64,000 nucleotides of DNA from Antedon bifida. Lineage: Eukaryota > Echinodermata > Crinoidea > Comatulida > Antedonidae. The notes below the pieces were generated by a model. It ran no database searches and was not told the origin of the DNA. It saw nothing but the letters and a program-made list of their open reading frames with translations. The stretch's first letter is position 1; each line of letters starts with the position of its first letter. The stretch lies in the NCBI GenBank assembly GCA_963402885.1, contig OY727097.1, positions 14,632,001-14,696,000 on the forward strand, in the 5' to 3' direction. A program made the translations under genes and the position numbers. Of the stretch, positions 8,907-44,400 are shown one piece after another.

Positions 8907-8934
8907 ATAACATGTCTTATGATATGTTATGGTC

Positions 8935-9275: not shown

Positions 9276-10151
9276 TATTGATTCTCACTCGTAATTTTGG
9301 TGGTATTATATGTTTATGTAATTAATACACAGTGAAAAAGCTTATTTTAGTATCCTATATATAGTAATACATTTTTCTATAAAATTTAAAGAGAAGATGG
9401 AATTTAAAATCAGTTACAAAAGCCGACGATACGAGAGAATTACAAGTTTGAAAAAACACCCACTTGTTCTTTTCAAAACACATTGCACATCGGCGAGGTC
9501 CGATGGCATGCGTGACTGGCGAAACAACGCAACAAAAATGTTGGCTGAACAAAAATTGCATGTTTTGTTGTACTGTAGGCTTATCAGTAGGCCTACAATG
9601 AAACGTGTATTTTATGTACCCAACGGTACAAAGTGTCATACAAATCGTACATTTAATAATTCGAACAGCCTAGATCGTGAACGTAATTCGTACGCTTTTG
9701 TTGTAGCGTACGTATACACAGTACACGACGTACGCGTCGGTAAATTCGCCGGGGAAGTAACTATACGCATTTTGGTCCCTGGATGGAAGATGTGTATTAA
9801 GCGTAAACCGTGTCATCATGTGTTTGTAATTACTACTTTAATTGTACTGATTGGAATAATTAATCAGTATTTAATAATGCTTGCCCTAATCAATGTTAGT
9901 TACATTGAAAACCTCATCCAAAATGCGATGTAAATCCACTCAACAATTTGTTGAATGGCAAGAGGAGACATGGGTCGGCTAATTCACTTGCTATTGTTTG
10001 TCTTTTTTTAACAATATTTTGATGACGAAGCAACAGTTAGTGTAAAGTCAGAGTGACAATAGTTATAATAATTATTGTTTTAGATTTGTAATAATTACGT
10101 CAAGAATAGCCTCTTCCCTAGTAGCTATGTCAACTACTTGACTTGACTATT

Positions 10152-13003: not shown

Positions 13004-13059
13004 AGAAAATAAAAACAGAAAGTTCTCTAATTTAAAAGAAAGTACGTTTTCCAATCAGA

Positions 13060-17381: not shown

Positions 17382-17480
17382 ATTGTTTGTAAGATCCAAT
17401 TTAGCACCTGCCTTGAGCAAAATAGTGCAAACATCTGTGTGGCCCTTACTTGCAGCAGCACCCAAAGGTGTCCATCCTTC
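17382..17480 (-). CDS. Ankyrin gene exon 7 (one ankyrin repeat; last exon seen)
   Basis: This 99-bp exon is bounded by AATATTTCAG and GTAAG. The residues start EGWTPLGAAASKGHTDVC and end GAKLDLTNN. It has the same splice flanks as exons 5 and 6 and shares their intron motif at 17330-17355. It is phase 0 and has no stop, so at least one further exon must lie downstream on the minus strand. I found none between 1 and 17381, where two LINEs and block A occupy most of the DNA. Confidence 0.9.
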
Positions 17481-20400
17481 CTGAAATATTACAAACATTA
17501 TGTTATAGTATTTTTCACTTCACAACAACAAACTATCTAATATTGCACTAAAATCAATCAGATCTGATCATTTATATACTAATTCAATTAAATAATTTAA
17601 TTTATATATGCTACATTGTTAAATTAAATACAGTTTATTAATATTAATGCATTACATACGTATTTTCTTGCATGATATTCTTCTGGATGATACAGTACGT
17701 TTAAACACTTAATAACTGTAGCATTTATACTTTATAAACTGTTACCAATTGTGTAAAATATGGTGGTTCTTTATTTTTTGATTTTCAAAATATTAGATTA
17801 TTCTTATCAGGAGAATTATTCTAAATATACTGTTTCACAATTCCAAATTCTGGAATGTTATGCACCTTTTTATTATAGACCTAATGTGATCAAACATAGG
17901 TCTAATATATTCAGACTAATCAGTAAAAAATAAGAAATGCGTTAGTATTATGTATGTATAATTTCAAACAAATGTAATCCGTACAGTAACAAACCTGTTC
18001 CGAGATTAACACGGACACGCATTTATATCCGATTTTATCAGCAAGCTCTTATTTCAAAATTGTATTGACTTCTGCATTACAAGGCATTTTTTTTTATGAT
18101 TGTAGGAGAGTAAAACGTTACAAACTGTACAAAATACAGATCACATTTTTGTACTTTTACGAATGAATAAAAAAGAATGTAAACATACAACACCGTATTT
18201 AATATAATCAAGAAGTGATAAATAAAGTAAACAATTTATCCAAATGCTTGGTAAATTGTAGATATAGCAGTCGGTGAAATCTTCTACAAATACAATATTG
18301 TGTGTATAGGCCTAAATATAAATCAATTGTGTTATATATATTACTTAGCCTATGTAAATACGTGAACAGGATTGGTTAAAACTGCATCACATGACTACCG
18401 CTGCGAGGATTGTATATATCCTCGAGTACGATGATATTGACGGAGTAATTTTCGGGTAATTATCGCGTCCCTATAATTAAACATATAAAATCCAGCAAAT
18501 TCTCGAGTACGATGATATTGACTGTGTAATTTTAGTGTGGCAACACTCGCGTTTGGCGATAAATAAACAAAAGTCATCTACTGAAACTTGAACTCGCGAA
18601 GATTTATCACACCGTTACAAGACAACGTCTCATTCGTTGCGCCACGCAACTCGCTTGAAGAAATTAATCAACAAAACTTTTTAAACTATCAGGCATATAT
18701 AGAGAGAGTTACGACTTCGCGTTCACGGATTTTAGAAAGTCACGTGGTGTGCACGCAGGCCATGTTTGTGTCCAACTATGCCTATGTAGCGTATGGAGTC
18801 GAGTCATTTGCTTAAAAAATGTATAACATTCACAAGGCTTTAAATATCGAATTTAATATCAAAACAATCAATTTGTTTAAAGGTTTTTGTTAAGATAATA
18901 ACGAAATCATAAAGTTACTGCAAACATGATTTTAAACAACAAAATGTAAAAACAATGCATTACTAATAGAGAACCGCTGTACAAACTAAAAGCGCACGCG
19001 TAGAGCGTGCATGGAGCGCACAACAAGAGCCGTTCCGAAATTGCTATTTTTGTTGTTTTAAATCATGTTCGCAGTAACTTTATAGGCCTAATTTTTCTAT
19101 TATTTTAACAAAAACCTTTAATCAAATTGATTGTTTTAATATTAAATTCGATAAGTAAAGCCTTTTGAACGTTATACATTTTCAAAACAAAAGACTCAAC
19201 TCCATACGCTACATAGGAATAGTTGGACACAAACATGGCTTCTAATCCATTCGAAGTCGTAACTCTCTCTATATATGGCCCTGTACACTATGCATACATA
19301 GCGCCCTCATGTGTTATTAGTTCTCCCTAGATGTGATGAAGACCGTTTGTGATTGGTTAATACTTACGGTAGTAACCTGTTACGCGCGACACGGCGAACA
19401 TCCGTTGATTCGGCTCCTCGAAGAAGACAAATTATTCGGCCTACCTGATAATAATATTGTTATTATTATTAATGTAGGCTTACTGACCTAGGCCTAAGTG
19501 AATATTTTATTGCCAAGGAATCATTAATTAGTAATTATCTGTATATTATTCTTTGCAAGGTAAGGTGAATGCAACGCCTAACTATCAGGCTTATTACAAA
19601 GGAGGCCTAGCTACACTTGACCCAGAAGTAGATATTTAACTTGTTGTTGGCTTTGTAATATAACAGATATCGCCTTTTATATCGATAAAATATAAGATTT
19701 GACAACCCCTTGGGAATTATATATTGTTCGAGGGAATATATTTCCCTCAGCGCTTTGCGCTTCGGGAAATATATTCTCTCAAGCAAAATATCATTCCCTC
19801 GGAGATGTAAAATCTTATATTTAACCTCTAAGCAGTCAATATCTGTATACAAAATCATACTGTCAAATTATAGAAACAGTGCTCATATTCGGAACATGAT
19901 CTCAAAATAGCGTCAAGCATAGTTCATTGGCCTAAATATATGTGGCGGGGCGTTTATTAGAGGGTGGAGGTTGAATATTCCAAAGATGTTTAATGGGGGA
20001 GAGGGCATTTATTCAAATAACTTCGGTAAGCCTAATTGGTATAATCAGTACATTATTTAGTTTAAATCAAATACCAACAATGACATACATCAGTGTACCG
20101 TTTCGGCATAATGAAGACGTTTTAAACGGCATGCAACATGGTCCAAAGCATCCCGAGTCTCATCAACGGCGATACACAAGCAGAAAGCGCGCAACCTGTT
20201 TAAACATAACATCAACTCAACAACTCGGCTACCATTCGGCTATATCGAGGTTTTGCATGTTTTCAAATACATCTATGATGCCTATAATCAGTTCTCCCGA
20301 TATAGGCCTAATGTAATTTTTACCCACGCAATTTCTGATATTTAAAATTGTATATACTGATTTTACAATTTCCCCCGCAATACACTTAGATGGTGTATTA

Positions 20401-23400
20401 TAATTGATTTGATCGTTGTTTTGCAGTATAATTTCATTTTGTTTAACTCAGTCTACACTATCAAACTTTATGTAACAACAAATATGATTTTACAGCGATA
20501 ATTACCGCCACTAACAGGTTTTATGATGTGCTAATGTAAATTAAAATTCTAATTTCAAGTACTTCTTAAATGAACTTGACCTTGCACTTACGAAAAAACA
20601 CCAATAGTTATCTAACAACACATATACCTTACTTTAGCGCAAAACCGAAAGAACGTATGATTATTTAAATATAAAATGCTTAATTCTGGAATAGGTATAC
20701 ACAATGTAAAACGCATAACACCAACTCCGTGTCGGTTCTCACCCTAGCTGTTACATGTGTCTATATGTCTTAAAAAGATATTATTATGGGTTTTTAAAAA
20801 AATTGTCAGATGTCATCGGTATATTTTTATCCGTCGGCGGTAAAGTTATTTCCGGGTTCGTCATCACTTTGCGATTTCTGGTTTGCAACTACAACGTGGC
20901 CGTTATTGGTTGTAGTCACAATAAAACCTCTGTATAAACTCGTGTTTCTCTCCCTAAACGACAAAATGAACTAATTCATATTAACTATTCTGCAGAAGAT
21001 TATGGTTTGGCTATTTAATATTCAGTCGGAGAGCCGCGTTGGGAAATATGACCGTTATCGCTGAATTTTCGACTTCGCATGACGTCATAAATTTTAGAAG
21101 CCCTCTCTCGGCACAGAAGCATCAACGTTTCGCGCGAAAACATTAGCATAAAGTATACGTCATTTAATAGCTGTTTAATAAACATTAGTAGGCGAAAAAT
21201 TAACCATATATGGTAAGATCAGTTCCTTATATGTTTAAGATGTCGCAGGTCACCTAATTTTCTGAATAATTTGTTGGATTTGTTGTCAGCGACAATTTCT
21301 TTCCAAAGTTCGTGTGCGTCCGTCAAAACTGAAGTTTTCTAACAGGTGTTTGTTTACAAATTTTCCATTAGTGGGATTTGCATCCCATACAGTGAATTAC
21401 CAAAAAACCGACGTATATGGATAGAGTAAGTATCAATAGTCTGTTTTACGTTAAAATTGGCTTGAAACCCTATTTAAGCTTCCTATAGCGAACATTTTAA
21501 AAAAGGTCCTCATGTCATATATTGTTACGTCTCGCGGCACTAGTTCCGTCGTGTATGGTGCATGGTGTGTTGATTGTGGTTGTTGTAGGTGAGTATATGC
21601 ACGACCTGGTGGATCGTTGTCGTATTATATCGGCCTAGGCCTAGTAACATGTTCTGTTAATAATTTAAATACTTTAGTTACAATTTAGTATTATTAAAGT
21701 ATCGTTACAATCCTACTCTATATTGAAGATGCATTGGGAAGTTTTAAAAAGATAATTAAGCAAATCGCAGCCTGATACAGGTATAGGCCTACCTATTCTA
21801 TAGTTAAATATTTATTTATAGTAAAATTATTGACAACTGAGGGGTACAATTTATTTATAATATTAATAATTATTACAATAAACAGACATAAGGAAATTTT
21901 GTATTTGCTGCTTTTTCATGGTAGGCCTGTATCTGAAAATGTGTTCAGGTTGTTGAATAATTATACTGTATAACGATGCAATGTTTTGTTCATATCATAG
22001 TGACAATTATTTAAATAGTTTCATTCATTACATTTCAGCTATTCATTTTCATTTTAGGTTTTTTGTTGGTATCAAGACTCGACGATTTTCTGTCTCGTTC
22101 TTCAATAATTATGAGGTTGGACGGTGGAAGCTGTAATGGTTTTCTCGATTTCAATATCATTGCTGCAGCTGATAGTTTTTCATTTTATTCGCTAATAATA
22201 ATATAACATATACATTCATACGCATTCAAGTTTTAGAAGCGTTTCAGATCAGTCAATGATAAGATATAAATTAAGTTGCAATTGATTGATTGATTGATTT
22301 ACTTTATTAACCAGAGTCACACAGATACATACAATATAAACATATAAAACAATCATAAAATCAGTACAACCGTAAGATGCACGTAAGTTAATATGATATA
22401 GGCCTAGCTAGTTTGTTATGTTTGATGAACAAGGTGCTATTTAAATAAAAGCAAGTTTTTATATACAGTAGAAGTATTTACTATTTATATCAGTATTGTT
22501 TGAAAGATATTTGTATTAAAAACTGCCTTTTCACATTCTGTATACGTAAACAAAAAAATTGGTTGCTTGTGTGAAATGCAAGTTGTATCTAATAAAGTAA
22601 TATTTATATACAAGTGTGACATTTACTGCCAGATACTGAAATACTGAGTACCAACCAATCACTGTAACAATACTCAAGTAAATGATGGACTTATATTTTT
22701 ATATCTTGGTTTCAGCTGGGCCCATAATTATCTTTTTTAACAACATGACCATATAAAAATACACGTTTGAGTCTCTGAAACAAACATGCCCGATTTTATA
22801 AAACATTCTCCATATATAAATTGAAAATGGGTTATTTTTTTTTGTTTTTCCATTTATTGTTTTTTTAACAGTTTTTTATTTGTTCTGGGCCTAGTTTCTC
22901 CTTCAGGCTTCTTCAGGCTTCTTCTTGCTTGGTATATGAGCAGAGCTGGGATAGACCTACCACTAAAGACCTAGACTATAGAATACCCAGCTACTATTAT
23001 TAACACTCACTAGGGTAGGCCTACCTATCTATCAGAATTACTCAGCCTAGCTAGGCCTAGAAAATACTATTTTTAGGCCTAGCTAGGCTAGAAATCAAGT
23101 AAGTAATTATAGTAGGTAGCCTTTCCTAGCTCAGAAACCAAATAGAACAATAATCGGGGAGCAAATTGAAATCTTAGGCCTATGACGTAATACACCTGCA
23201 TGAAAACCGTATTGAACACAGACACGATTCGGTCCGGGACGATTCGTACCAGCTTCGTAAAACGTAAACAACGTTTCAAAATGGCGATTTTTCGATCGAA
23301 ACAGAACAGAAATGTAGTAGGTTTGGTTTGATTAGTGGGAGTTGCATCACAAGAAAGCTTAAAATTAGATTTTTATTTTAATAGATAGCTTAATAGTTTA

Positions 23401-26400
23401 TCTTGAAATGATTTTAAATTCGCTTTGAAACCTTATCTAGAAAATATGAAATTTAATGATTTTTGTACCATCATTTAAAAAAAAATTAAAGTAAAAAAGT
23501 TTATACATAAAATAATGATATTTCTTTAAACAAAAAATCTGTGGAATTTAGATCACAGTTTTTATCATTATTTACGCTTGTAGTTCAACTATTGAAATAC
23601 GTTTATTGATTTCATTTAATATCCAAATTATACCATTTTCTAAGTGTACTAAAATAGCAAAAATTCCAACATTTTCCACGAAGCGAGCCCTCACAATGAA
23701 TGAAATCAGTGATGCGTTACCAACGCGGCTTTCCGACTGATTAATGAATGAAAAAAAAGGCTTAGACTGTTTAAAACCTAAGGAACAAATGCCTCATATG
23801 TTTAATAATGTTATCAATTGTATATACACTACGATATACGACGCGACGTTATTATTAAAGTTATAGATTATGTATAAATATTATAACATAGAGCATGGCG
23901 ATTGTAAGCCGACTTAATACCATTGCTGTTCGGTAATACCTATTAATTCATAAAGTTTATAAAATAATCAATTTCAACAGGTTATTACAAAGTGCGACAG
24001 CTCGATTACTACAAAGTGTGACGATTATTACAAAGTGCGACAGTACAAACAGGGTTTACAAATAATAATTATATGCGATGTTTTTTTTTTTCAAGACAGT
24101 ACTTATCAGGAATCGACCATTTATGTCCTTGCTTGAATATCAGGATCATTAATTTGAAAAAAATAATATTAGGTTCGTTGGTGAGATCTTGCTTGAATGT
24201 ATCCAGGTCCAGGGCTTTAAATTATCGCGACTTAAACACTATCTTTGGTTGATCTGACTTCCCAATGTCAATATTAACCCTGATTAAGCAGCGGTGTATG
24301 TTATTACCGGTACGCCCTTTAAATTGTAAAATTAAACGCTTTTTTTAAATCACACTGAATTACAGGCCTATAGCACATATTATTATTAATTTGTGTAACA
24401 CTTACATTGTCCTGAAGATCCAATTTAGCACCTTCTTTGAGCAAAAGGGAGCAAATATCTGTGTGGCCGTTTTCAGCAGCGATGATTAAAGGTGTCGATC
24501 CATTCTGAAATATTACAAACATAGCATTGTTCACTCTACAGCAAGATATTTAATATTGTACTAAATCAATTAAATGTGATCAATTAAACATATTTATATA
24601 ATACTACATTATTAAATTCAATAACGAGTATTAACATTTGATAATGTATTGTATGTATTGCTTGTATAATAATTGTATAGTACTGTAGGCCTACATGTAA
24701 AACAAATAAGTGTTTCTTTGCCTGAAATTTAAACACATTATCCGGTAGTGCTAACTAGTATCAGTGTAATTATGATGAAGTGGCGTTTTAACTGGCAGTT
24801 AGGCCTACAGTTAAAAATATATCCAGGCTCCAAATTATGTTCAGGTAACACATTTTGACTGTTAAATTCTTACTATTGGTTTCATTTTACCGTTACTTAG
24901 AGGGAATACGTTTTTTGAAAATGTTTTAAAATCAAATGGAAATCTCGATTCATATCCATTTATTGTATCATTTGCATAAAATACAGTGTTGCTCTGTAAG
25001 GCACAATACAATAAAAAAACCAGAAAACTGAAATTCTCTAATAACCAGTTTCCTAAAGGCATATGGTTACAATGATTACGGAATCTATTACGAGATGTGA
25101 TGGAACTTTTCTTAGAACGTCAAAATAGTGCATTGGATAGGTGGAATGTGTTTCCTCAGTAAAGTCTCCTATAAAAATGAATCAAATTGAGTTCAATTCT
25201 AAGTACTTGAGTCCTATACGTGAAGCATAATCAACAATACATTTGAGTCCCAACTTATCCTTACATGTGGTCCCGGTAACCCATGCAGCAATGAAAAAAG
25301 TGAGAATACTTTCAATGACCGATTTATATAAAAAAACGTAGGCCTTATGGGAGGAGTAACTTCAAAATATGCAAAAAGTAAAAACGTTGAGCATGCCTTA
25401 GTAATAATACTTATTGTCGTGCCATTTAAGATCTCTAGTGCTTTATTTACAATGTCAATTCCAGAGTGGGTATTTCATATTGTAGGTGATTTACATTTGT
25501 GTGTTATAATTATTTCGAGTGTTTCACCTGCTTTGATAGAAACTATACTGTAATGAGTTGAAAATGTAAACATATTAGTGTATTGGTAAACACATGATGT
25601 ACTGCAAACCAAAATAGTGTATTTGTGCACATAATAGGTAGGTGACATTTGTAATTGAGACCGTTTTATTTGACACGAAAAAGCATGTGAAGTCTTAAAA
25701 AACGTACGTAATCATATAATGTAGTACATTTTGAATGTTGACATGACATGATAAACAATAAATATGTTCCTTCTAACAGAGTTCAACTTAGATTTTTCTC
25801 GGGTTACTTGGATTTCGTTCTTAAATACGGTGTATTGTTGTATTTATTGTAATGCCATGTGTTCTCTACAGGTCGATATTACATAGTTTGGGTGCGGACA
25901 TTTCTCTTAGTATTATTGGGTAACACCGTTGCTTAAAAATATATTGTTTATTATAAAACATAGACCTTTTCAAAAAACTACTTAGTTTATTAATGAAAAA
26001 GATCATAATTAAAATATACATTTGAATTAGCTGTACGTGAGTTCAAATAAAACATCTAAATGAATATGTATTTACAAAAAGCTACAATTATGTTTTCGAG
26101 AATTGTTGTTTTTTTTTAGACCACACTAAGTGGTTGGTGTAACTTCACAATAATGATATATTGAAACAATATATGTTAATTAGTCGTATACATGGACATT
26201 TACCATATACGATGATTTAAAATTCAGAGTTTCAGTATTATAGTATTACAGTTCAACCTCCGTGAGCGGCCACCTCCCGAAAGCGGCCACCTCCCTTAAC
26301 GGCCGTAATTTCAAAAGCCTGTTTGTTCTTCATCAAATTAGTGGACCTCCTGTAAGCAGCCATCTCACACATTAGATTGTTTGTATGGTAAATTTCCTCC

Positions 26401-29400
26401 CGTAAGCGGCCACACAAACAATTTGTATTGACTGTTGACAGCAACAATGCCATATACATTGCTGCAGTCGCGTGCGCAAATTTTAGTTAGTGACCAACCG
26501 ATCGACCGACATAGTGAGCTGTAGAGTTGCGTTTGCATGAGACTAAAAACACAATTTTGATACTTTGTTGTGCGTTATATATTAGCTTTATTTGAAGAGG
26601 TTTTAAAAATATTTCTGTGAAGAACATTCCTGTGTTTTTAGTCGCGTGGACGCGACTCTATAGTTCACTATGTCGGTCGGTTGGTCGGTCTGTCTGTCGG
26701 TCTGTCTGTCTGTCTGTCGGTCTGGTATCACTATGCGTTTTATCGCTTTCTGACCTTATCTTGATATCAGTTTAATCTAGCTAAGTCAATTTTTCACAGA
26801 ATATTCCTTATGGCCAGAAATCGATGTGGTTATGTTTTCACGGTGCGCAATAAAAAATTACGCGGTCTACGCACGATTTAACGAAATCACGTTTGTAATC
26901 ATATCTTCACAACCATAAATCACAATTAAATAAAATTTGGTACTCATAAATTTCAGGGCATAAATCATCATAATGGCAATACAATTACGTGCGTAGCGCA
27001 TGTAACGCATGCGTACGCGCGCTTAAAATTTTCAAAATTTATTTTCGATGAAATAAGAGTACGTTTCAGGCAATTTTAAGCGTTTACAAAATTGCCATGA
27101 GTGCGCAGATTTGTGCGCGCGCACTGCGCGTTAAATGTTATTGCGCACAATTAATCGGCCACATTTCAATTCCATAAAATAAGGAAATTAATTATTAGGA
27201 GTTGAAACCTTAGTGGCTACAGCCCAGGTCTATAGTCTACATTAGTTAATATGGCCAACCACATGAATTCCAGGAGAGTGAGTGACCTTCTACATAACGA
27301 ACACTGAATTTATAGTTTTCCAAAGAATTCTACATTGCTAAATTAAACTAAATTTGAACTCATCAAGCCAAAAGACGTTCATTTTTGTCGCAAATACTGT
27401 AGGAGCAAATGCAACCGTAAGCAACTGAAGAAACGATATTTAGGCCTAGCCTAGATGTAATCAGTAAGCAATTTTGACGGCTGGTCTCTTCAGAAAATAG
27501 AGAACCCTACGAACCCCTCTTTCTATGGGCTTGCGCTTCATCGCGACGAGTTCGAGTTATCCTCGTTAACGCACACCCTCTAACTAAAATGAAATACACA
27601 TATACTCTATGACCCGAAAAATATGTTTATAGTGTGCTGAATTGTGTCTATTCTGTGTCATACAATATTAAGGGCGAATAACCAATAAGTGAAGGTTAAT
27701 AGTCTATTCTGTTCCGTTTATTCAGTAAGGCCTACATTTCACTCAGATATGTTACTTTTCACTATGATCACACAATTACGAAATCAGCAACAGTTGACCA
27801 CATACGAATGGCAATCGGTTCTTTTTAGTGGGCTGAATTATTAACTTCAATTGACTTAAACGGCCACCAACTGTTAGTACTCAGTTTAATAAAACTAATT
27901 CCCACTTGTACAGAGAATTTGACATGAAAACTTTTACAGATAGGCCTACAACAATATCATTTCACTATAAATCTTTGATATCATGTGTTATAAACAACAC
28001 CGGATGTGTTTACAATTGCCATTTCACGGCAATACGGTTGAGTTTCATATGAAACAAAGTTAAAGAGATTATAAGTTTCTGAAATATATTGTAGTGCTGC
28101 TGTGTTATCGGAGAAAGTTTATAATCTAATCACATAATCTATATATAAATTTACGTAAGGGCAAAATTCGGTAAATCGCGCATTATTTATAAATTTACGT
28201 AAGGGGAAAATTTTGTAAATCGCGCGTTATTTCTAGAATGTTTACTCGATGGTGGTATATAAAGTTGATTCATACTTTCGATACTGATTTTAACCACTTG
28301 ATGTAACCCTGTTTACTAATTAAATTTAGTTAGATAATTAGTTATTGACAATTAAAACGAATTTAGGTTCAACGATTTGCCCCAAATAGGGGTGTTTTCC
28401 GATCGTGGTATACACTGTCTAATGGATGTCCTCATGAAAAATGCCTGCATACAATAATACGAGGATACTTCGCATTTACCTGTCTCCTCCCACGATAATT
28501 GTGTTTAATAGCTGAGTACAGTATCATAATGTTGAAGACAGGCCGATTTTCTTTAAAAAATACTATTTTGATAGATTTAATATACGTTTATACAAATGTA
28601 TTGATTTGCGATGAATGGAACATTCCAATCTCTCAGACTACGTACGTACATTTTTTACGCTGAACTTACTGTGTATTCGAGAACCATCATGGACACGACC
28701 TAGATGGTACGCGAGCGAAGCGATAACACAGCAGCACTACAATATATTTCAGAAACTTATAATCTCTTTAACTTTGTTTCATATGAAACTCAACCGTATT
28801 GCCGTGAAATGGCAATTGTAAACACATCCAGTGTTGTTTATAACACATGATATCAAAGATTTATAGTGTATTCAATTATCTCAACACAAATACCAATTGA
28901 AATGGCATGGTTTCTGTGATTAGTTCTTTAGTTCTTTTAAATATGTCTACTATAATCTTTCCCATCTCTTATGAAAATTGTTTTCAATACAATCAATTGC
29001 CTGTTGTAGATGCAAACAAGGAAAACGCTTGTCCATCATTATTAAGTAAGTTTTCATGGATAGTTATTTCTTCAGGTTGATGTACTTACATTTCCAACAC
29101 ATAACCCTTACCTTCTATCACGTAAAGTATTAAGAGTACACACCTGTTCATGTGCGCCATATTATTGCTCATATATTCTTTACCAAAATAATTTTGCAAG
29201 TACGGTAATGTATTGATTCAACATTACTTTGTTTACCAATTGGAGTTGTATATTCATGTGAAGTAAACAAGGTCAACACTCGGGAAACCAAATTTTATGG
29301 AAAAAAGCAATGGATTTGATACTGCATGCCATTTTTTTCTATTATTAACCATATTAGGAAGAAAAAATAAAATTTCAATTATTGCTATATTTTGGGGTTA

Positions 29401-32400
29401 AAGGTCACCAAATACATGCCAAAAATACCAAAAAATCGTATTTTTAAAATAAAACTATTAGAATAGTTTAGATTCACGGTGATTCTAGAAAAAATAACAG
29501 CGAATTTATCAAAACTGTTGTTTTTGCTCTTTTAAAATTGAAATGTCATGGTTTCTATCAGTTTCCATGGTTACAAGACACTATTAAAATTTACCAAACA
29601 TTATTAGTGGATTTATATAATTTAAGATGTCTTCTTCCTAAACAATATTAAAAAGTTTGGATTGCCAAATTTACCATTTTTGGACTTTTGGCACACTTTG
29701 AATTGATTCTGGCCCACTGTGTCACGTGCCAAGAGCTATTCTTTTATTATTCAATTTTTTTTTTTAAATCGGTAATCGTGACCCTTTAAAACTTGTTGTT
29801 GTATATGATGTGCCAGCGTGCTACGTTCTAAGCATTGGAGTAGTAAAAACCCCAATAAAAGTGACATTGGGTAGACTTGTAAATGGTAGTTGCGAATGAA
29901 TTGCCGTTTCTTACAAAGGGAGCATACCACCTCTCGTAACTACGCATTTTGGATATGTATAGCATGGCCCCTGGATGTCGACGCGTGAGCTGGGTCAACT
30001 TCTAAATATAGTTAGTTATAAATGTTTATTACAAAGGGACACCGCCAGATAAGTGCGTCCTATCACTAGTAAGTAACTTGATTCAGATTTTGGTCATTGT
30101 AACTTTGATACAGCACAGATATCGACGCGTGAACCGCAATGAAAATGAGTTTGTGAATTAGACATTTTACTGTAATATTAAATATATTTGTTACTAGAAA
30201 TTAGTTTGATAAAATATATTCTACAAAATTAGTAGGCCTAATAATTGTTTTCCCTCATAAATAAAGGGGAGATGGGGATGGGGACACGTGTCTGTTTATG
30301 AGTGAGAATCAATCAGGCATTTTAATTAAAATGCAGACCGTCTTAAATTACTTGACATGTTTTGATAAATACAGTAAATATATTCTCATCATCAGAACTG
30401 TAATCAAAGCCTAGAGTACTTGTATACGTACTACAACGTTGCGTTTAAATGAGTCAATAATTAGCATGAGAATAGATTTATCGAAACATGTCATGTCATT
30501 TTAAGACCGTCTGCATTTTCATTAAAATAATGCCTTATGATATTATTGATCATCACTCATAATTTGGTGGTATTATACATGGTGTGCCTGTTTATGTACA
30601 GTGAAAGAGCTTATTTTAGTATCCTATAATAATATATTTTCTATATAAAAGAATATGGTATTTCAAATCAGGTACAAAAGCCGACGATCCGAGCGAATTA
30701 CATGTTTAAAAAAATTCGGAAAACACCCATTTGTTATTTTCAAAACACATTGCACGTTGGCGAGGTCCGATGGCACATGCGTGACTGGCGGAACAATGCA
30801 ACAAAAATGAAAAACGAAAATGGCATGTTGTGTTGACAGTGGCAGAATCGGGTGTTTATTTCAAGCTCACATAAACGGGCAATGAAATCCTCGTTATTAA
30901 AAAAAAACATTATTTAAGCTTATTCACTATAGTATATTTAAATTATCTACTTATTAATTTATTTGTATATTGTTTTCTCTTTTTGCTTGGTTAGATAAAA
31001 CATGTTACCGAGAAACGAAAAACATTCTAGTTGAAATTCTTTATGTATACCCACAGATTGCACTATTTTCTGTATACTTAATTAGGTACTCTTTTCGTAT
31101 ACATGTATTGCTGTTGGGAATAGATAAATATTTCACTTCAAATATTTTTCAAAATATTGGTACACAACAATGAAAGAAAAAGCGAAAACAACATTTTTGT
31201 ATTAGGCCTAATTGTCAATTGTTTTATATTATTGTAGATCATTGTTTTCTTTGTTTTTACTATTATGATGCCAATTATATATTGGAAAAAGGATTTTATC
31301 GAGTCGACTTTAGATTTGCAAGTAACAGAGAAGCATTTCTTTGGTCCGTTGTCAGATGGTTATTGAATCTTTGTTGTTGATTTCTCTAATACTTATGTAA
31401 TTAACCACTTTACGTCACCCTGCATTGTAGGTATTAACAATATGTATTAGAACTCTAGTAACTGTCCTTTTGCGATATCTATTTTCGACTCAATGTATTT
31501 CATTTCTTTCATGAATATGAACAGTTTGTCTTAAATGAAAGTTAAATTGAATTTGAATTGCGTGTTTATTGTATTAACAATTGTTAACATTAATCTTATG
31601 AGGGTTAGTTTTATAAGAACAATAGTACTTTTTTTATTTGTTTTGGCAATTAGTGCAAATAAAGCGTAATTAATTCAGCAATCGTCATATTCGATTTGGA
31701 ATACTATACGTCCTGTAAAATGAATAGAATGTTCTCATGATTGTATTGCGGCGCCTTTCCACGTATCATTTTATCGCATCCCATCCTATTACTATTGAAA
31801 CCGAATTGAAACATGTTAACAAGCTGTTTATGATGGTCACAAAATGCCAAGATACATTAAAGAAACGCCCATCGTCAGATATATGTAATGAAAAATATAC
31901 AAACAATGATGTTGCTGTGATGTCGGTGGTGGGTGTTTGGTGTGGCGGCGTTTTCCACTAGATATGAACAAGTACAACACCGTATTTGATATTTTAAAGA
32001 AATGATAACAGTAAACAATTGTATGAAAATGCTTGGTAAATAAATAGTTATAGCAGTCAATGAATTATTCAACAACAAGTATAATTGTGTTTGTGTTATA
32101 ATACAATATTGTGTGTATAAATAGATGTTGCGGAGCGTTAATTAGAGGGTGGATGTTGCATATTACAAAGATGTTTTATGGGGGAGACGGCGTTTATTCA
32201 AATAAATTCGGTATCGCCTAATTGGTATAATCAATACATTATTTAGTTTAAATCAAACACCAAATAATGAAAACCATCAGTGAGCTGTTTCGGCATAAGG
32301 AAAACGTTTTAAACGGCTTGCAACATGGGCCAAAGCACCCCGGGTCTCAATGGCGATACAGTACATGCAGAGTAGCAGAACGTACCAGTTCCAGAAACGA

Positions 32401-35400
32401 TGAAACACGAATTTAATTGAGTATGAAAGCAAAAATAACAACGGACAATGACTAAAAGTTTCCCGAAGAATTGTTGAATTAAACTAAAATTTGAACTCAA
32501 TCATCACCGTGATGAGTTCGGTATATGCGCGTTAACGCACACAGTGTAACAAACATCTTAAAATACGCATATACTCTATGACCTGACAAAAAAAATATTC
32601 ATAGTGCTGAATTATGTATATTTTGTGTCATACAGTATTAAGTGCGAATAACCAATAAAGTTAATGGTGTATGTTTTCTTCGTCAAAAACCCAATGTATT
32701 GTATGTGATATTTTTCTTGATAGTATAATATTCAATTTGTTGGTGGATATGATGCATTCTGAAAGTCCTTTAAAGGTTTTGTTAAAAGAAACATCAACTA
32801 CGATTTAATTTTAAACAATGTTAATATATGTTTTGGTATCGGAAAATGTCATAGTTTTGATGCATTAACTACACTAATTTTGATAGCTAAAAGATGTATA
32901 TTCAACTGTAACATTTCAGAGGACCCACAAATTTAAAGTCATTGTTAAAAGAAATATTAAAATAGAAAAGTATATTGGTTTTGAAAATTATAATATGCAT
33001 GCATATAACCTAAAATGGAAATATTTAGGAGTATATTCTGTCTTTTAACTACTTATGATATGTATACATTTTTGCTTGATTGGGTCTGTATCTATCTTTG
33101 GTTGATCTGACTTCTCAATGTCAAGATTAACCTTGATGGGGCAGCGTTGTTTCGAATCATGTGCAGTTCTCGACAATACAGTCATCCTCACTACAAAGTA
33201 GGCCTGAGTTGGTTCATATAGGTATGTTATTACCGATACGCCCTTTAAATTGTAAAATTAGCACTTTGTTTTAATCACATTGAATTATATAGCACATATT
33301 AGTATTAATGTTTATTAACACTTACATTTAGCTGAAGATCCAAATTAGCTCCAGCCTTGATCAAAATAGTGCAAACATCTGTGTGGCCGTTTTGTGCAGC
33401 TACAAGTAAAGATGACGCTCCAGTCTGAAATATTACAAACATTATGTTATAGTATGTTTCACTCTAAACAAAAGATGTGATCAATTAACAATAACGTTAT
33501 GGATTTAAGTATGCTACATTGTTAAATTAAATAAAGATTAATGTGTTGTATACGTATACATTTGTCTTGCTTGTATAACTTTTATAGTACTTTATAAATG
33601 TAAAACAAGTGTTTCTTTGCCTGAAATGTAAACACTTCATCCGGTAGTGCTAACTAGTCTCAGTGTAAATTATTATAAAGTGTTGACGAGAGGACGTTCT
33701 GCCGATAGAGGGCCAAAATCACGTTTTTTTAAAATTTATTTATTGAATATATCGTAATCGCAGCACAAGGCTGAATTAAAACAATATTAACATGATAATG
33801 TACACATCAAAAGGACAAACAATCTAACAAAATTACAAATATAAAAATATAAAGGTACAAAATTCAAAAAGAATCGATAAAAATATACAAAATTGAAAAT
33901 AGACAAAAAGTAGCATACAAGCACGCGAGCAGAATTTGCACATGACGACCAATAAAACAAGAATCATTTGTCATTAAGGAATTTGGCGAGAAAGGGTATA
34001 GCACTTTTGGCATATCTTTCGGTTCGGTACCTTCATGCCAAATATGTATCTATATCGTTTTGAGAATGACAGAATTATTTTACTACTATACATTGGTTTG
34101 TAAATGAATACGTTTATAAATACTTATTAAGTCATGGTAATGAAAATGAGAAGAAATTACAATAAAGGTGGGTGACTCCCACGAAAGAGCACGGGGGATT
34201 AGAAATTCGTTGGATTTTCTAAGGAGCATACTGTGAGAACGAGAATTAATTAAACCACTCTTTAATGGAATCGGAACAGACGCATCGATGTGCAAATTCT
34301 TTACATAATTTGATTCTTCTCGCATCAAGCGTCTGAAGATTAGTACTTTTAAGTGCGTTAAGATATGTGTCGTACTTAGGTCCCAATATAATCCGAAGCG
34401 CTCTTTTTTTAATTCGCTCAATCATGAGAGACTGTTTTATAGTACTACAACTATGCCACGCTGTTGAGGCATACTCGACAATAGGACGAACGTACCCCAC
34501 ATAAACGGACACCAAATCGCAAGCAGAAACTCTTTCATTCATTCATAGTAACATTTATTTCTTATCATTTCAAAGTAAACATAATAACAATTTAAATATA
34601 AATAATTAAGAGGCAAAACCCAGAAAGTACTAACATTTGGAGGTTTCCCTCCAAAAAAACTTGTGACGGCTAGCCAGTTAAAAAGTTGTAGTCATATTGG
34701 AGTTTAAACAAACCGAAACAAAACAAGACAAACAAACAAGTAAAACAAGACAACGACAAGTTAATAATAATAAAATACTATATGGAAGCACAGAAAACCA
34801 GAATAAACATGTTGTTTTATTATTAGTTATTTATGGAGTAGAATTTGTTTAAGTTTAAAAGAAAATTTATTTTTTGAAGGTGCCAATTTAATTTCGTCGG
34901 GCAGATCATTAAATAATTTGGTGCCACTATAACGGATATTATGTTGCATTAATGTTAATTTGGTAAGGGGAGGGTGGAGGTTACAGGAGGATCTAGTTTT
35001 ATGGGTATGAATAATATTATTTTTTATAAAGCTGCAAGAAAGTTTAGTTGGAAGTAGACAGTTGACATGTTTGTCAACTCTAAAACGCTTGAGACGATTA
35101 AGCATTATAATCTACGACTACTATTAGAAATCATATTGCTAACAAGAGTATCCCATCTTAAATTTTCTTGTATAGGGATACCGATAATTTTTATTTCATG
35201 CACAAAATCCAGCAATTTACCAACTATAACTAAGTTTGGAGGATCGGGAGGGTGTTTTTTAAAACAAACTTGCAAGGCTTCACATTTTGATGGATTGAGT
35301 TTGAGAAATGTTTGACTAGCCCAGTTTTCTAGATCACAAACGTCAGTATCAACAAAAGTGGGATCGCTAGCACGACGGACCTCAACAAGGCTAACATCGT

Positions 35401-38400
35401 CAACATACTTAAATTTAGATGATTGGGCGTTTACGGCAGCATCATTAATTTCATTTCATTTATCTTTTTATTTCGGAATATCATGGTGACATAATATTAT
35501 ATCCATAGCAAAAGAGAGAAAAAAAAATCTTAATCTAACAGCTCATAGAACAAAAACAAAGATATGTAAATATATAAAGTCAATGCAACAAAGCATTCCA
35601 TTGTATGTGCATTCTTGACACATTAAGAACGTGGCGATTAATGGCCATGATCAAGGAATTACTACTTGCGTTCACACGATTTTTAAAACTAAAAACAGAT
35701 TTTCTAATGAACTCATCAAAGGATGGGACGTCATTTAAGACAAACATTATGCTTGCACTACAATGTCTAGGCTGCTTCAGCAGCAAACGTAAGGCATTGT
35801 TATAACATACTTTCAGTGATCTCAGAGTGCTCTTATTATATCTACACCATAAGGTTGAACAGTACATGCTGACACAGTAACTCTTAAATAGATAACATTT
35901 AGTGTTAGTAGAACATTTTCCAAACTTTCTATTTAGAGAGTTGGCCCTAATGCAAATAGATCGATATTGACGTTTGATGTCACTTTCATCACTCAGATTA
36001 TTACTGATCACATGACCAAGATAGGTTATTGAATTATCAACGATTAGAGGTGCCCCATTTAAGGTAATATGTGGAACACCTTTGAGGTTGCGGACTTTCG
36101 GGCAAAATAGCAAGCATTTGGATTTGTTTTCATTAAAAGTAATATCATGGTCACTAGCAAACCCTTCACAGAGTCTAATTAGCCAAAAGGACCAAGTCAT
36201 CGGCAAAGCTTAGGCAATTCAGTTTAAGACTGTTAATTTCACAACCTTCTTTTGACTTAGTCAGTTCAACAGTTAACGGATCAGTGTACAAATTGTAAAG
36301 TAGAGGGGACTTAACGCCTCCCTGGCGAACCCCATTACGAACAGTGAAAGAATCGGAAACGGAACTACCCCATCTGACAACAAATTCCTGATTCCTATAC
36401 CATGACCTCAGTATCTTAACTATAGGTGAAGGGGTACCCCTGTCAATTATAACGTTAAAAATAATTGGTCCAAACTTAGTAGGCTGTGAACATTTCCCAG
36501 ATTTGAATCTGGTAGGGATGTAAGGTTGGAAGGTAGACTGGTAGCTTATGGCGTTCAATCGGGCGGCTATTATGTGAGATTGAGGCAAAACTCTGATTGA
36601 TTGCCTTAGCAATTTCAAAGTGGTCACTTTGGGGGACTCCGGGGACTGAAATGTTGGGATGGGATTGTAATTTATTGCTCATAATTTGGATTCCTTTATG
36701 CCAATTGGATGTATCATTCTTTTTTTAATTTGAAAGGCGGTCTTGATAAAAGGATTTTTTGCTGATTTGATAGAGAAAATGATTTTGTTTCTAAGGATGC
36801 GCCACATGTACGTTTTATTTTGGCAAAAGGCTACTTGGCGCTTTTTAATGAGAATCTTAATTTCTGGGGTCATCCAAGATTTGTCATTAGTATGAATTTT
36901 AGAAGTTTTTAGTGGAAAGTGAGTGTTAAAAGCGCTATTGACTGTACGATAAAATAAATCAGCCTTAGCTTGGGGTGACTTAGCTTCTAGGACTTCAACC
37001 CAAGATTGGCCAGTTATCCACCTCCCAAATTCAAACATACGATGCTAAGGCAGGTCTAAAAATACTTTTCCTAATACTACCATTTAATTTAAGGCCGCTC
37101 GGGGCCTAAAAAACAGGATTATGGTCACTATTACAAATTGGTGCACCAACAACTGGTTTACAATAAACGTTATTAATGTTAGTAACAATAATGTCCAAAA
37201 TAGCAAGTTCACGTGTAGGTGTCACGAACATAGAGTGAGCACGAAATGGGGTTGATATCAACTCTTATTAAAATCGCCTCGATGACGAAACCGGGTATAT
37301 TTTCTTTAACTGATCAGTAAAAATTATGTGGTCAACTAGCACTTGCTGATGTTCAGATTTTGGAGGTATGTAAACAGCACAGACAGCTATCGCAAACACC
37401 TTGCGTGGGAGTCGGTAAGGACGAACATACAGCCACAAACATTCAAGAACATTGGGAATAATAACATCTTTAATCGGCGTTGCATGCAGGGATATTGTCC
37501 GTTACGTAGACGGCAACTCCGCCACCAGTTTTTTCCTCTCTTAATTTAGTGAAAACATTAAAGCCATCAATTGATAAGAAATCTGTCGAGATTGAATTCG
37601 TTGAATTGAATTTGTTTCTGTTATAACAGCTACATCAACAGGGTATATACAGTTATTCCTAATAACGGCTTCTAATTCGTCAATTTTGTTGAGTACGGAG
37701 TGAGTGAGTGTTTGTAAGTAAAAAAACAGGTATACCGCCAACGGTTTTGGGAGCGAAATGAAAAGTGTTCTTACCCAAATCCGCCAGATGCTTGTCTTTA
37801 GAGATCGTGTTTATATATATTAAATTGGCATTAGGCCTACGTATCATGGAGTTGGCATCACGAAAATTAACGATATGTCCATAGCACGAATAAAACAACA
37901 CGTATTCTATTCGTGGTATGTTGAAAAATTTTAATTTAATGATATTATTATAATTATTATTATTGTGACCGAATTAGACATTTGTCATATACGATGATTT
38001 GAAATCAGTTGCATCAGGTTTAGTAGTATGCCTATTATGGTATTATTGTAATCAAATTAACATTTTTTTGTTATATAATACAAATACTGGTACGTAATGG
38101 CCGACACTCCATACTAAACATGGCCATGCATTTAATACTAAACATTGTATTACATTGACATGTCAGAATGTTATAATTTACTTGGTATTGCAACTATATT
38201 AATTGACCAAAAGGTGACATACACTTTTGTCAAATCATATCCTGTTTTGTATCGTTGGATATATTTAAACTATGAACTTATTTTAATAATAATATTATGT
38301 ATGATGTAATTATTATGTAATTATACATTTATCATTAATACTTTCAATGACAAACAAAGAATTACTACATCATACATACATAATGATACATATTATGTAT

Positions 38401-41400
38401 GTATGATGTAGTAATTCTTTGTTTGTCATTGAAAGTATTAAGGATAAATGTATAATTTGTATAGTGTCCCATATCGTTTATGAACGCGTTATAATGTTGA
38501 TTCTGTTTTGGTTCGCTATGTGTAAAAGTGAAGATCAAAATAATTAAAATGTTGGAATTATTCGTGATTTTTGAAATTATAATCATGAATATTGTCTCAA
38601 TGTTAATATTTAAAATCACCTAAAATCATCGATAGAGAACCAGATGTAAACAACGAACGCATCAGAGGCCATTGGATCCGACGACGAGGAATCCAAACCA
38701 TCAACAGAGACAAAGGCGTCCACCCATTCGTGAATGACCCTTTTATTAGACAGAATTGGCTCTCTAGAGGTCAATCTGTTTAATGACATATTTTTAATTT
38801 CTTCTGAAGGAGCTGTCTGAGCAGAACAGCGAAACTGCCAATAGCAGGTTAGTTTCGGTAATTGTTTTTTTTCTTCGAAAATAATTTAAATTCACATGCC
38901 GTATCGTTACGTAAAATACAGAGTGTACATAATCTCCGCGAAACCATAGTAATTATTTCATTAACATGCTTACTAGTATAGGACAAAAATCTGAAAAGAG
39001 GCCTAGAAATAAATATAGGGGAATTGTGGAATGCTAGTAACAGGCAGTCAACATAGCCAGATATCTTATTTAATCTATTCTGATCACTCTAAGCTTTGTT
39101 GACACTTAATTTTTTGCCTAGACTATAACCCACATCAAGTCGTCTTTTAATACTAATACCGGTACGTGTAATTTTCACATGATATCCCGCTTTTCCGCTA
39201 TACCGCATTGACCAAATTCGCTTCACTCGCAACATCTCATCCCCTCCCCTTAAAACTCATGTCTACTATTCTGTTGCACCATGATAGCATGATACATTTC
39301 GAACATTCTTGTTTTAAAGATCTCGATATCTTGTCGCCTCTGCTTATCATTACTGGCTCAAAATAATCCACGTCAACATTGGCAAATGGTGGGGTATCGC
39401 ATGTTTTTACTTATTTTTTATCCTTTCCATATTTATATTTAATTAGAGTTTGCTCCATTATCCAGTAGGATTTATTCAGCTTTGTTGGCATGATATTTCT
39501 ATCCCTGTGACCATACTTGAAATGAGTATCTTGAATAACGAAATCAGCAATAGTTAGTCACATATAAATGAAAATTGGTTGCATTTTAGTAGGCTGGAAT
39601 TGGTTTTACATCCACAAAAACTGTAAGTACTCTGTTAGCTAAAACTTCAGTGTCATCCTTAAAACATCTACCCTTGCGCTTGTTCTTTTCGCGGACGATA
39701 TATTTGGATGGTTAGCGTAGCACATTTTCCAGATTAAAACTTTAAATTTGCGTTACAGTGTGCTGCATCGACGGTCGAAAATAACCGTTGAACAGAAGGT
39801 CATGGAGCTAGATCATTACGTACTTTTCAACACGCCCGGTAATTCATAGAACAAAAGAGTCTAACACTATTAGTGGGTCCTGAATTGTAGGTCCAGCTTG
39901 TACAGCAGAATATCATCTCACTGTATAAACAACAACGATTTATAACAATTACTTCACCTTTAAAATATAGGTCACACCTTTTTTTAAATGGAATTTCAAA
40001 TAGAAATGGTTATTATTGGTTATTAGTTTAGTCAGTGTGCACTCTATACATTAAGCTTAATGCAGGTCAAATTAGCAATTGAGTCATATGTACATCCCTA
40101 CACACAATATGTACATCCCTAATACGTTGTCAAAATATGGTTCTCGGTAAAGTTATCATTTAATACTGTTTAGATTGGTGTTTTTTTCACAGAAATCAAA
40201 TATCGTTTAATTTGCATCAGCTTAATATTATCATCACTTGACCAAAATCATCAAGTCATCAATATTATCTTGGAACTGTCATTAAGCTTATAACAAGTTT
40301 CACCAGTGAGTAGCAATTAGTTACAAGTAATTACACACTGCATTGTTTGCAAACTGTGGTAAGTAATACAACCCAAAAACTGTCATGATATAATTAGGAA
40401 AAGGGAACAAAATGGTTTATTTCCATAATAATAATAATAATATCAACTAAATGAACCTGCTTAATACATTATTAGTCACAGTTTTGTCGTCTGTTGCATT
40501 TCAAACGTTTATTCCAATTGTCCTCTGTTTTTCATTTATATTTTAGTGGTTTGAGACTTACATACTAATTAGTTAGTATGTATCATCCTTCTCATCTATG
40601 TTTCATAGATGAGAAGGATGATACATATATAGCGACAGAATAGTAAATGCAAACGTCTTTAACAAATTAAGAAGAAATTAATTGAGATTATCATGATATC
40701 TGATACCTGATTTGTTTAGTAGATAGTAATTATTAAGTGGATGTGTAGGGTAATTCATATTGTTTCAACTTAGTAACAGTTTATGTATCATCACTACGCA
40801 CAATAGGCGAGTGAAGAGATAGTTACAGGTTGTTTTATATTTGAAATTACTTTAAGTATAGCCTCTTTTCTACTCATGTCAACCACTTGACTTCTGGTGG
40901 GCTTGACAAAGTGTCTTGTATCTGCGTAATTAAAATTCGCCTAATATGAGACAACCACAAGGCTAAAAAAAAACAACTACCGTGGCCTACATACTTCAAA
41001 TAATTATGCCAGGCATAGAGCAAGAAAGTCGATTAGGATAAACATGGAACAAATTCTATCATGTAACTGGCGTGATAGGCAGAGGCAAGGGGACATATAT
41101 AAATTATGCTTAATTCTGAAATACGCGAGCCCAATGAAAAAAACTGTTCTATCGCAGATGTACCGCGAAACGTAGATTTGATAACATCGTCTTCACTATT
41201 ACGATATTGTTCCATATTTCTCTCTTATTATAAACAAACTTCTGATTTCATCTCTAGATTTTCAACCGTCCACGGTATAGAAGTGATTTCCGTGTTGATC
41301 ATATAATTACTTTGCGACTTCCTGGTTTTTGCTCCCCTCCAACGTTTGCCGTTGGCGGCGACATACATTTTGCTTTATTCATGGGCCACGCGTAAAGTTT

Positions 41401-44400
41401 AAGCAAAATGAAATTATACTGCAAAAAATAACGATCAAATCAATTATATTAAAAAATCATCGAAGTATATTGCGGTGGAATTTGTAAAATCAATAAATAA
41501 AATTAATATCAGAAATCGAGTAAAAATTACATTAGTACGAAAGCCTAATCTTGCCACATCATGAATGTAAATGAAATTTCCACATAGCAAAAATAAATAA
41601 ATAAAAACAAAAAATAATTGGCCTAATAGCTACTATCGAGGCATAAGAGACAAGCTGTTATTTTGAATTTAACAAATGGGCAATATGAAATTCGACATTT
41701 GATGGGCCACTGGGGCTTTAGGCGTTCCATGTGGCGGCCGAAATGAACGGCAGCCAATGTGCACTGTATTATTTATTTATTTATTTTTTAATCAGGTAAA
41801 ACCCGGACATAGGCGAATGGTAGCCGAGTTGCTGTAATGTTTTGCATGTGTATCGCTGTTCAGACCCGTGGTGCTTTTGCCCATGATGAAAGCCGTTTAT
41901 TTAAACGTCTTCTATAATAAACGCCCGTCTTCCATAAAACATCTTTGGAATATTCAACCTCCACTCTCTAATAAACGCTCCGCCACATATATTTGTACAC
42001 GCAATATTGTATTTTAATCAAACACAATTCTATTTGTTGGAAAAGGTCGTCACAAGGGGGATACAGCCATTTTACAACAGTAATTGTAACAATATGATGA
42101 ATATGGTTATGGAAGTAGAGAAGAAGTTAGTTTGATTAAGTTTACATTATGTTTGAAACTATCGGCTATACGCGTACACAAAAACGCACTACGTATAATT
42201 CGCCAATGTTGAGGGCGCAAGTTAACTTATAGTTACTGAATGGTTTATTTGTGTTTCTATGTCTTTACAGAGTGCGAGTTTAATATAATTTGAATCACGT
42301 TTATCTAATCCTTAACCTATTTCACAGTTATATGCATTCACGTATAATGTATATATTTGCATTTACAATAATTATTGCCAATGTATTTTTAATGAAATGT
42401 AATCCAAAAAGAACATTCACAAGAGTATAAACACCTACGGCCTACCTTATTCGGAACATTCACATGAGATCCTGCCATAAGCAGAATGGTAACAATATCT
42501 GTACAACCTTTTCCTGCAGCACAAAACAACGGTCCACATCCATTCTGAAATAAATAAAACACGTTTAGGTATTACTATCAACTCAAATTTGTTTCTAATT
42601 TGAATTTAAATTCTACCAGATTTAAATAGTTTAACTATTATTTAGTTAATCGTTCTCTGAAAGATAAAAGCCAACACTGTTGTTGTTAGTTAGTTTATAA
42701 TGTAATGTTCAATTATTAGTAAGAATATAATATATAATATGTAATATATAACATAATATATTATTATTATTATACATTATGGGATTTAGAAACAGGAGTG
42801 TTTACAAGTTACTACATTTTCTCAAATATAAATTTGGCTTTTAAACATGTACGGTATTTAAAAATGTTTTCCAGTCGACGCTGAGTTGGATTGAATGAAC
42901 AACCAACAGTGATGATGATCGAGCCGGACCACCAATTGTTTAAACAATTGGTATTAAAGTACGATTTTTTAACTTAGTTTAGCGCTTTCTCTCTCGAGCA
43001 TTGCTGGAACACCAAGACTACGTAAAAAATAAATTGGATTTTGATTGGTTGGTTTATGCTTGGACTGAAGACAAAACATTAAATTTAATTTTGTTTGTTA
43101 TTATAATTTATAGTTTTACTTATACAATAATTGAAGACGTCGTCGCTTTGTGAGAATTCAAGAAGTAGCAGTGCGTATACTATTTTGTTGTCAAATTATG
43201 ATGACGTAATTTGTGAAACTTTTGTTATCGTTAAAGTTGTAAACGCAGTGTTGACACATATTTCACTGCTATTCGTGTCAATCGTTAACATATCAGTAAT
43301 CTAAAATGCGTCGACATAAAGACCAGTTACCCCTTTTCATACCAATTCGTTGAATCTGCATAACTCAAAGCAACTCAACATCGAATAGAAAACAGGCCTT
43401 ACTCTCGATATTAATATGGCATAATAGGTATTATACTGTTTAATGGACGAGGGAAACATTCACTTAAGACGTGTAAATATATCAGGCATTTATCATTTAT
43501 TCAGTTTTATAGGCTACACTAGTAATTTTGTTGAAAAAATAAAAATAAGTACAATAATTTCGACAAAAAAGTATTTTCGTACATTCAGTTTCTTAATAAT
43601 TGTTACGGGCCTATTTATAAGAGAGATGATAGACCGGTAACGTCTTCTGCTACGTACACCTTAAACATAGGATGGATCTTTTTTTTTCATTTTGGAGGAG
43701 ATGGTAAAAACAGTCCGTCTTCAATTTTCAGGAAGGCATCTCAGAGTTGGAATAAGAAAAAACAAACATATCCATCTAAGATAGTGCACTGTTTTACGCC
43801 GATGATGCAAAATGTTAAGATTACCCTTAATGATGTATATCAGTAACCTTTTTGACATTAAATTGCAAGAACCAACACAAAGCTTTACTGGAATTTCATC
43901 AAATCCACAACACATAATTGTGTCTGGAGTCGGCTTATTAACCTTGACTGATAGATATGTATAACGCAAAAGCGAAAGCTGACATTTTTACAAACATGTT
44001 TATAACACAAATATGAAAAAAAAAGTATTCCTGAAAGTCTGAACCAGATACCATCCCCGGTAATGTACCAAAACACTCGCACCGAGTAAAAATGTTTCAG
44101 AAATCGCTATGTACAGGATGTCTCCCAAATGAATGGCTAAAATGCTAATGTTTCCCCCCTTTTATAAGAAGGGCGAATTTAGAAACCTATATAGATCTGT
44201 CCCATTGAATTCTTGTGAAATACTTGAACGTATCATCATATTATTAATTTTGACAAACATTTATCTTGATATATGTTCAAAATGGTTTTTACACTCTTGA
44301 TACACTCTGAACAGCAGCATTACTTTATGATCTTGTTAACATTCTAAATTGAAAATGACAAATAAACTTTATCATTAAACTTTTGGCCATTGGTTTAGTC

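Follow-up and report, generated by a model that had tools for sequence, protein, structure and literature searches.

What does a row of ankyrin exons, kilobases apart in the genome of a crinoid, represent: one gene that is growing longer, or a part of something larger? The question is raised by a stretch of 64,000 nucleotides of Antedon bifida (contig OY727097.1, called C10 here, positions 14632001-14696000), which is referred to below as the window and whose minus strand carries a series of exons that each encode a single ankyrin repeat. An earlier note on the interval 17382-42544 of the window had described a single ankyrin gene that lengthens by duplication of one exon together with its whole intron. 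The present analysis replaces the lengthening gene by a larger finding, a megabase array whose members diversify. The window probably contains one of many giant ankyrin genes arranged head to tail over megabases, and this array would carry a natural recognition repertoire similar to that of designed ankyrin repeat proteins (DARPins).

The array was detected by searching the genome (315.6 Mb, 27 contigs) with parts of the window's gene, whose exons are listed in Table 1. The head query consisted of exons X2 and E51, and for the ankyrin-exon query 150 of 368 candidates were scored; all head and exon counts are lower bounds. Of 70 matches to the head query, 52 lie on C10 at 11.50-16.35 Mb (28 similar to E51 and 24 similar to X2), and at least 120 of at least 139 matches to the ankyrin-exon query lie on C10 at 11.30-16.31 Mb, all of them on the minus strand. 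The array thus spans 11.30-16.35 Mb, about 5 Mb, with at least 28 heads and at least 120 ankyrin exons placed head to tail on one strand. Heads are spaced by 50-342 kb (median 175 kb), with 0-11 detected ankyrin exons per head (121 exons counting E42). Being head-to-tail, in the same orientation and in one region, these copies are a tandem-array gene family. The first coding exon X1 and the terminal exon T39 were located at the window's gene, and X2 at 24 matches. Elsewhere in the genome, the head query found, again only on the minus strand, one match on C16 and 17 diverged matches (35-43%) on C7 at 11.96-18.07 Mb; the ankyrin-exon query found at least 14 on C7, all minus (10 in 12.96-18.06 Mb and 4 at 27.364 Mb), and at least 5 on other contigs, 3 of them on the plus strand. 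A second, diverged group of heads and ankyrin exons, all minus, is therefore seen at 11.96-18.07 Mb of C7.

Table 1. Features of the window (positions counted from its first nucleotide)
Feature	Position	Strand	Description
X1	55428..55478	-	first coding exon, MDLKKELLELCAHNSLK; 51 bp, phase 0, start of the N-cap; GT donor present
X2	54811..54891	-	second exon; 81 bp, 27 aa, phase 0, N-cap; AG and GT present
E51	51762..51860	-	first full ankyrin repeat, part of the constant head; 99 bp
E42	42446..42544	-	ankyrin repeat exon of the type with PNK end, before the terminal exon; 99 bp
T39	39476..39529	-	terminal exon, encodes ILISSMVTGIEISCQQS and stop; AG acceptor
E33	33326..33424	-	array ankyrin exon; 99 bp
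E24	24406..24504	-	array ankyrin exon; 99 bp
E17	17382..17480	-	array ankyrin exon; 99 bp
E33 segment	31368..34501	-	3.1-kb segment carrying E33, missing from the homologous unit at 12.36 Mb
Array block	26151..30835	-	collinear with 3749-9570
Second block copy	3749..9570	-	another copy of the array block inside the window, broken by insertions

Within the window, E51, E42, E33, E24 and E17 each encode one 33-residue ankyrin repeat in phase 0 between AG and GT ends, and the ankyrin repeat motif was found by a motif search of the window's exons; for E33, E24 and E17 this agrees with what the earlier note had seen. From X1 to E17 all exons run from phase 0 to phase 0, so that gain, loss or skipping of a repeat leaves the frame intact. 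An Rfam scan at gathering thresholds gave no matches. Among proteins that carry a name, the best matches come from Antedon mediterranea: three uncharacterised proteins, each with three repeats, at 56-61% identity to the query across 64-72% of its length. X1 and X2 match one of them, P0004, at 83% over 18 aa (tblastn) and 89% over 27 aa, respectively, and the C-terminus of T39 matches the end of the predicted isoform X2 (P0003) at 88% over 17 aa. The precomputed Pfam domains of P0002-P0004 are presumably ankyrin only.

The terminal exon bears directly on whether a single gene is growing here. T39, with its stop codon, lies between E42 and E33, and therefore E33, E24 and E17, which had been taken as exons 5-7 of one gene, follow the end of a gene; to connect them with the head, alternative splicing would be required. 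The simplest transcript of the window's gene is predicted to be X1-X2-E51-E42-T39, encoding 127 residues. A single ankyrin gene that lengthens by one exon and a whole intron, 7-9 kb per step, would explain why single-repeat exons occur four times at roughly even intervals, three of them with common flanks. It is nonetheless improbable, given the position of the terminal exon, introns in the interval that are not copies of one another, and a locus that belongs to an array with at least 28 heads and at least 120 exons. The three related proteins have three repeats, and a protein search for long members of the family with this head (224-712 aa) returned 35 candidates, none at E<=0.001, which suggests short products.

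The introns of the interval were compared by same-strand matches at E<=1e-3. They are 6.9-9.0 kb long, and the matches sum to 458 bp for the E42 and E33 introns (each named by the exon that it follows), 796 bp for E33 and E24, and 217 bp for E42 and E24; reversed-sequence controls for the three pairs gave 0, 0 and 1 matches. Part of this similarity is a repeat that is also found inverted after E42. The large intron blocks that were said to recur in the same order were thus not recovered within the interval, and whole-intron copying between its exons was ruled out by the 217-796 bp shared per intron pair. Common exon flanks are seen for three of the four exons: about 500 bp surrounding the exon are common to E33 and E24 (75% identity), shorter stretches of about 160-335 bp link E17 to each of them (70-81%), whereas E42 reaches 61-66% with the other exons over 87-216 bp. 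Collinear homology outside the exons, for which a self-alignment had been proposed as the check, does exist. Its single long series, however, joins the array block to the second block copy (7 pieces in order, 74-86%), the latter lying outside the interval. The copied units that were found measure about 3-14 kb and recur over up to megabases instead of passing from one exon to its neighbour, and some, such as an exact 5.4-kb tandem copy, contain no detected ankyrin exon. The idea that ankyrin exons multiply with intron sequence and that insertions later interrupt the copies holds at the scale of the array, in multi-kb pieces, and fails for a whole-intron unit. The earlier note caught a real trace of exon duplication and described its unit and scale wrongly.

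Segmental copying is observed both around the window and along C10. When the window joined to 200 kb of its own flanks (264 kb) was compared with itself and matches of at least 500 bp were counted, the array part gave 109 same-strand and 2 inverted self-matches, whereas array and upstream sequence gave 15 same-strand and 18 inverted matches, as expected of dispersed repeats. The array part contains a 13-kb collinear chain at 85%, which by position pairs E33 with an exon at 14594690. A part of the array block (27306-28138, 833 bp) gave 41 matches, window copies included and with 40 of 139 candidates scored, all minus and all on C10 at 11.46-16.32 Mb. Seven other copies of the block were fetched and align piecewise with the window's intron; in the four best of those fetched (L002-L005, 0.4-2.4 Mb away) identity is 90-99%. 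The most informative comparison is with a unit at 12.345-12.365 Mb, 2.3 Mb away, which matches 25.5-38.1 kb of the window in pieces of 96.7-99.6%. In this unit window position 31367 abuts 34502 directly and the segment carrying E33 is absent. Nothing corresponding to window 26011-27151 is present in this unit either, and it carries an insertion of 6.5 kb at 29.6-29.9 kb. No other single event of exon gain or loss is as clear as the presence or absence of the E33 segment, which may be either a gain or a loss. Also in the array, positions 14601810-14612519 of C10 hold an exact (100%) adjacent tandem duplication of 5,357 bp, which is either very recent or an assembly artefact.

These matches also bear on whether the shared blocks are dispersed transposons, with ankyrin exons carried along or associated by coincidence, which we consider very improbable. 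Pieces do occur in both orientations, namely 41843-42039 vs 32073-32369 and a 148-bp pair in the array block (27963-28110 vs 28721-28868, 99.3% identical); about positions 430-600 of the 833-bp block part are weakly matched outside the array, upstream; and frames that resemble long interspersed nuclear elements (LINEs) lie in the window. Against this, the 41 scored block matches and the 120 array exons are all on one strand of one 5-Mb region, and only 2 of 111 matches of at least 500 bp in the array are inverted. A transposon as carrier of the exons was ruled out by this restriction to one strand and one region and by the scarcity of inverted matches.

Are the copied exons intact? Out of 112 further C10 matches, 80 exons were fetched; 12 partial or low-scoring matches are among those left out, and the fetched set is biased towards consensus-like exons. 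All 80 are open and have AG, and 79 have GT, giving 79 of 80 with both splice sites; a protein search favours open frames but does not so favour intact splice sites. Among head exons, E51 and 16 of the 27 others are likewise open with AG and GT (17/17). The exons are not uniform in sequence, as 71 distinct peptides were found among 87 exons.

The position of these differences can be judged against the fold. The AlphaFold model of A. mediterranea P0002 (five-row alignment; predicted local distance difference test score, pLDDT, 87.7) shows an N-cap followed by three ankyrin repeats. By motif and by fold this is an ankyrin repeat protein. By sequence it matches ankyrin-1/2 in the PDB, and 38 of the 50 nearest solved structures listed for the model have DARPin or ankyrin in the title; the PDB is rich in DARPins, which partly accounts for DARPin-titled neighbours. 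In the second repeat of the model, helix 1 corresponds to exon positions 5-11 and helix 2 to positions 15-23. Across 87 exons, amino-acid changes are concentrated at seven exon positions (1, 3, 7, 8, 11, 12 and 32), all of which fall in the hairpin, in helix 1 or on the residue right after it, and none in helix 2. These seven positions were chosen post hoc, on 7 and then 87 array exons, and only the test on head exons is independent of that choice. Positions 2, 3, 5, 13, 14 and 33, which we take to be those randomised in DARPins, were used as six a-priori contact sites; the repeats of DARPin D12 differ from each other at these six. In the 87 exons, the six sites gave a permutation P of 0.028 for amino-acid change and 0.010 in a Fisher test of amino-acid against further codon changes.

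Rates are given as changes per site, counted for codons at their first two positions unless third positions are named. In the array test, 86 of 87 exons were used (one gapped row was dropped), A580790 and the divergent E42 were excluded, and the tree was built from intron flanks only. The six contact sites changed at 5.83, the other codons at 2.46, introns at 2.59 and third positions at 3.42; the seven post-hoc positions changed at 9.71 against 1.29 in all remaining codons. Contact sites exceed introns (p=0.017; 0.042 with a whole-sequence tree), and the other codons are slower than introns by a rank test (p=1e-4), although the means are close (2.46 vs 2.59). In the head exons (n=17), contact sites changed at 1.42 against 0.39 in introns (p=3e-4). 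The seven positions chosen on the array changed there at 2.00 against 0.31 in the rest (p=4e-6 relative to introns; random-set P 0.0003), with positions 11 and 12 hardly varying. The concentration of change on the binding face thus recurs in a second set of exons. Change of the face above the neutral rate is supported in the array exons, and in the heads only relative to introns. Variation of the binding face over a conserved framework, as expected of a DARPin-like repertoire, is observed, with a framework that is slower than introns in the array exons and not in the heads. Third positions of the seven hot codons are fast as well in the array exons (7.57 vs 2.31). Fast third positions may reflect replacement of whole codons (multi-base), gene conversion or constrained introns.

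A number of observations weigh against a recognition repertoire. The a-priori contact test is modest, with a random-set P of 0.047 in the array and 0.043 in the heads and, in each set, second place among 33 circular shifts, and the rates include any effect of gene conversion. Third positions of the head exons, at 1.21, lie far above introns (0.39) and near the contact sites (1.42), so that "faster than neutral" in the heads rests on a low intron yardstick; the head framework (other codons), at 0.50, is not below introns (p=0.27). Array exon A580790 has lost its first residues, and a second copy of T39 (C10 14630657-14630710) has an in-frame stop and no AG acceptor. The upstream control region, compared with itself, gave 94 same-strand and 19 inverted matches and so has same-strand repeats of its own. 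The empty search for long family members counts here as well, as does the presence of only three A. mediterranea family proteins among the named rows (most rows being nameless); many array copies may be unannotated, silent or absent in that species. Finally, exon joining in this genome is a prediction from sequence, and an immune role is conjectural.

Part of this evidence would also fit a real array whose members are a tandem family under relaxed constraint, with the fast positions being simply those where ankyrins tolerate change. The pooled dN/dS-type ratio of 0.87 over seven exons, the broken exon and broken terminal-exon copy, and head third positions that nearly match the contact-site rate are all consistent with it; the fast third positions and the unconstrained framework of the heads lower confidence in a recognition repertoire and raise it in relaxed constraint. 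However, both splice sites and an open frame are kept in 79 of 80 exons, and contact sites in the array (5.83) exceed both introns (2.59) and third positions (3.42). Relaxed constraint is therefore regarded as unlikely.

The next question is how heads and exons would be joined. Beyond T39, ankyrin exons run for about 190 kb, and no further head was detected until 14.34 Mb. Alternative splicing could link one head with many ankyrin cassettes and ends that lie downstream, similar to exon choice in Dscam or lola. The two A. mediterranea models labelled isoform X1 and isoform X2, which are predictions and are taken as one gene, have the same head and first repeat and differ in the last repeat and end, and the phase-0 exons would allow such joining. 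On the other hand, the isoform labels are predictions, and the downstream exons may belong to genes whose heads were lost or undetected. Exon choice is accordingly somewhat less likely than not to operate here. A bolder proposal is a fast-turnover germline library of stand-alone ankyrin binders, in which heads and more than 100 frame-neutral exons would be combinable by splicing, selection would drive change of the binding face, and C7 would carry a second, diverged array. Such a library would be the ankyrin counterpart of repertoires of the antibody, variable lymphocyte receptor (VLR) or Dscam type; it is rather doubtful.

In the preferred reading, that of a DARPin-like array, each gene would consist of a constant head (N-cap X1, X2 and repeat E51) followed by single-repeat ankyrin exons up to the next head. 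Exons move inside multi-kb blocks that bear introns, and the copies later gather insertions. Copying itself is observed, and unequal recombination may be the process behind it. Splice sites, frame and framework are retained while positions of the concave face take most amino-acid changes. The products are probably small ankyrin-only proteins of DARPin-like build, whose recognition surfaces would together make up a repertoire, possibly in the setting of immune or self/non-self recognition.

Various known systems can be compared with this array. DARPins similarly comprise an N-cap and some three repeats of 33 residues (the A. mediterranea relatives measure about 160 aa) with a variable hairpin and inner helix, and 4 of the 7 fastest positions found here correspond to DARPin-randomised ones. 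DARPins are laboratory libraries, whereas the variation here is natural and genomic and also affects DARPin positions 1, 9 and 10. Dscam, lola and protocadherin genes have tandem exon cassettes together with a constant part; in the crinoid, by contrast, exon choice is putative and a further head follows after each 50-342 kb. Ankyrin genes of vertebrates, for example ANK1, contain many exons of one 33-residue repeat each within one conserved gene, whereas the crinoid exons form a diversifying multigene array. In the fungus Podospora, NLR repeats (ANK/TPR/WD) show repeat-number polymorphism and concerted evolution, and the variable ANK positions lie on the inner helices and hairpin of the concave face (PMC4986451). 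Those repeats are part of NLR proteins; in the crinoid every repeat has an exon to itself, kilobases from the next, and the related proteins are presumably ankyrin only. The zebrafish NLR-B30.2 family is a large immune-type family on one arm of chromosome 4 with exon shuffling between members; it has other domains, is not made up of single-repeat ankyrin exons, and has no clear pattern within chromosome 4 reported for it (PMC4852459). Among the titles and abstract openings listed from one open-access library, no description of an array such as the present one was found.

If the preferred reading is true, an animal without adaptive immunity has evolved a genomic counterpart of DARPin libraries, with a fixed framework and a diversified face. 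Exons of one repeat in phase 0 with kilobase introns provide large, frame-safe targets for recombination, and a link between exon layout and repertoire growth would be testable. The presence or absence of exons between closely similar units offers a route to dating exon gain and loss.

Further observations concern the ends of genes and the repeats of the window. Homologues of T39 inside the array block (T27, T5, Tm15, Tm42 and Tm59) have no AG at the T39 position; in T27, Tm15 and Tm42 an AG occurs some bases later, immediately ahead of TGA. An open frame at 618-3575 (+), 985 aa, which we take to resemble the LINE family, ends near the end of the array block at 3749. Broken reading frames at 12434-15829 (+), downstream of E17, and at 35580-36678 (-), in the intron after E42, are presumably LINE-like as well. 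An exact tandem pair of 484-488 bp lies at 15966-16937.

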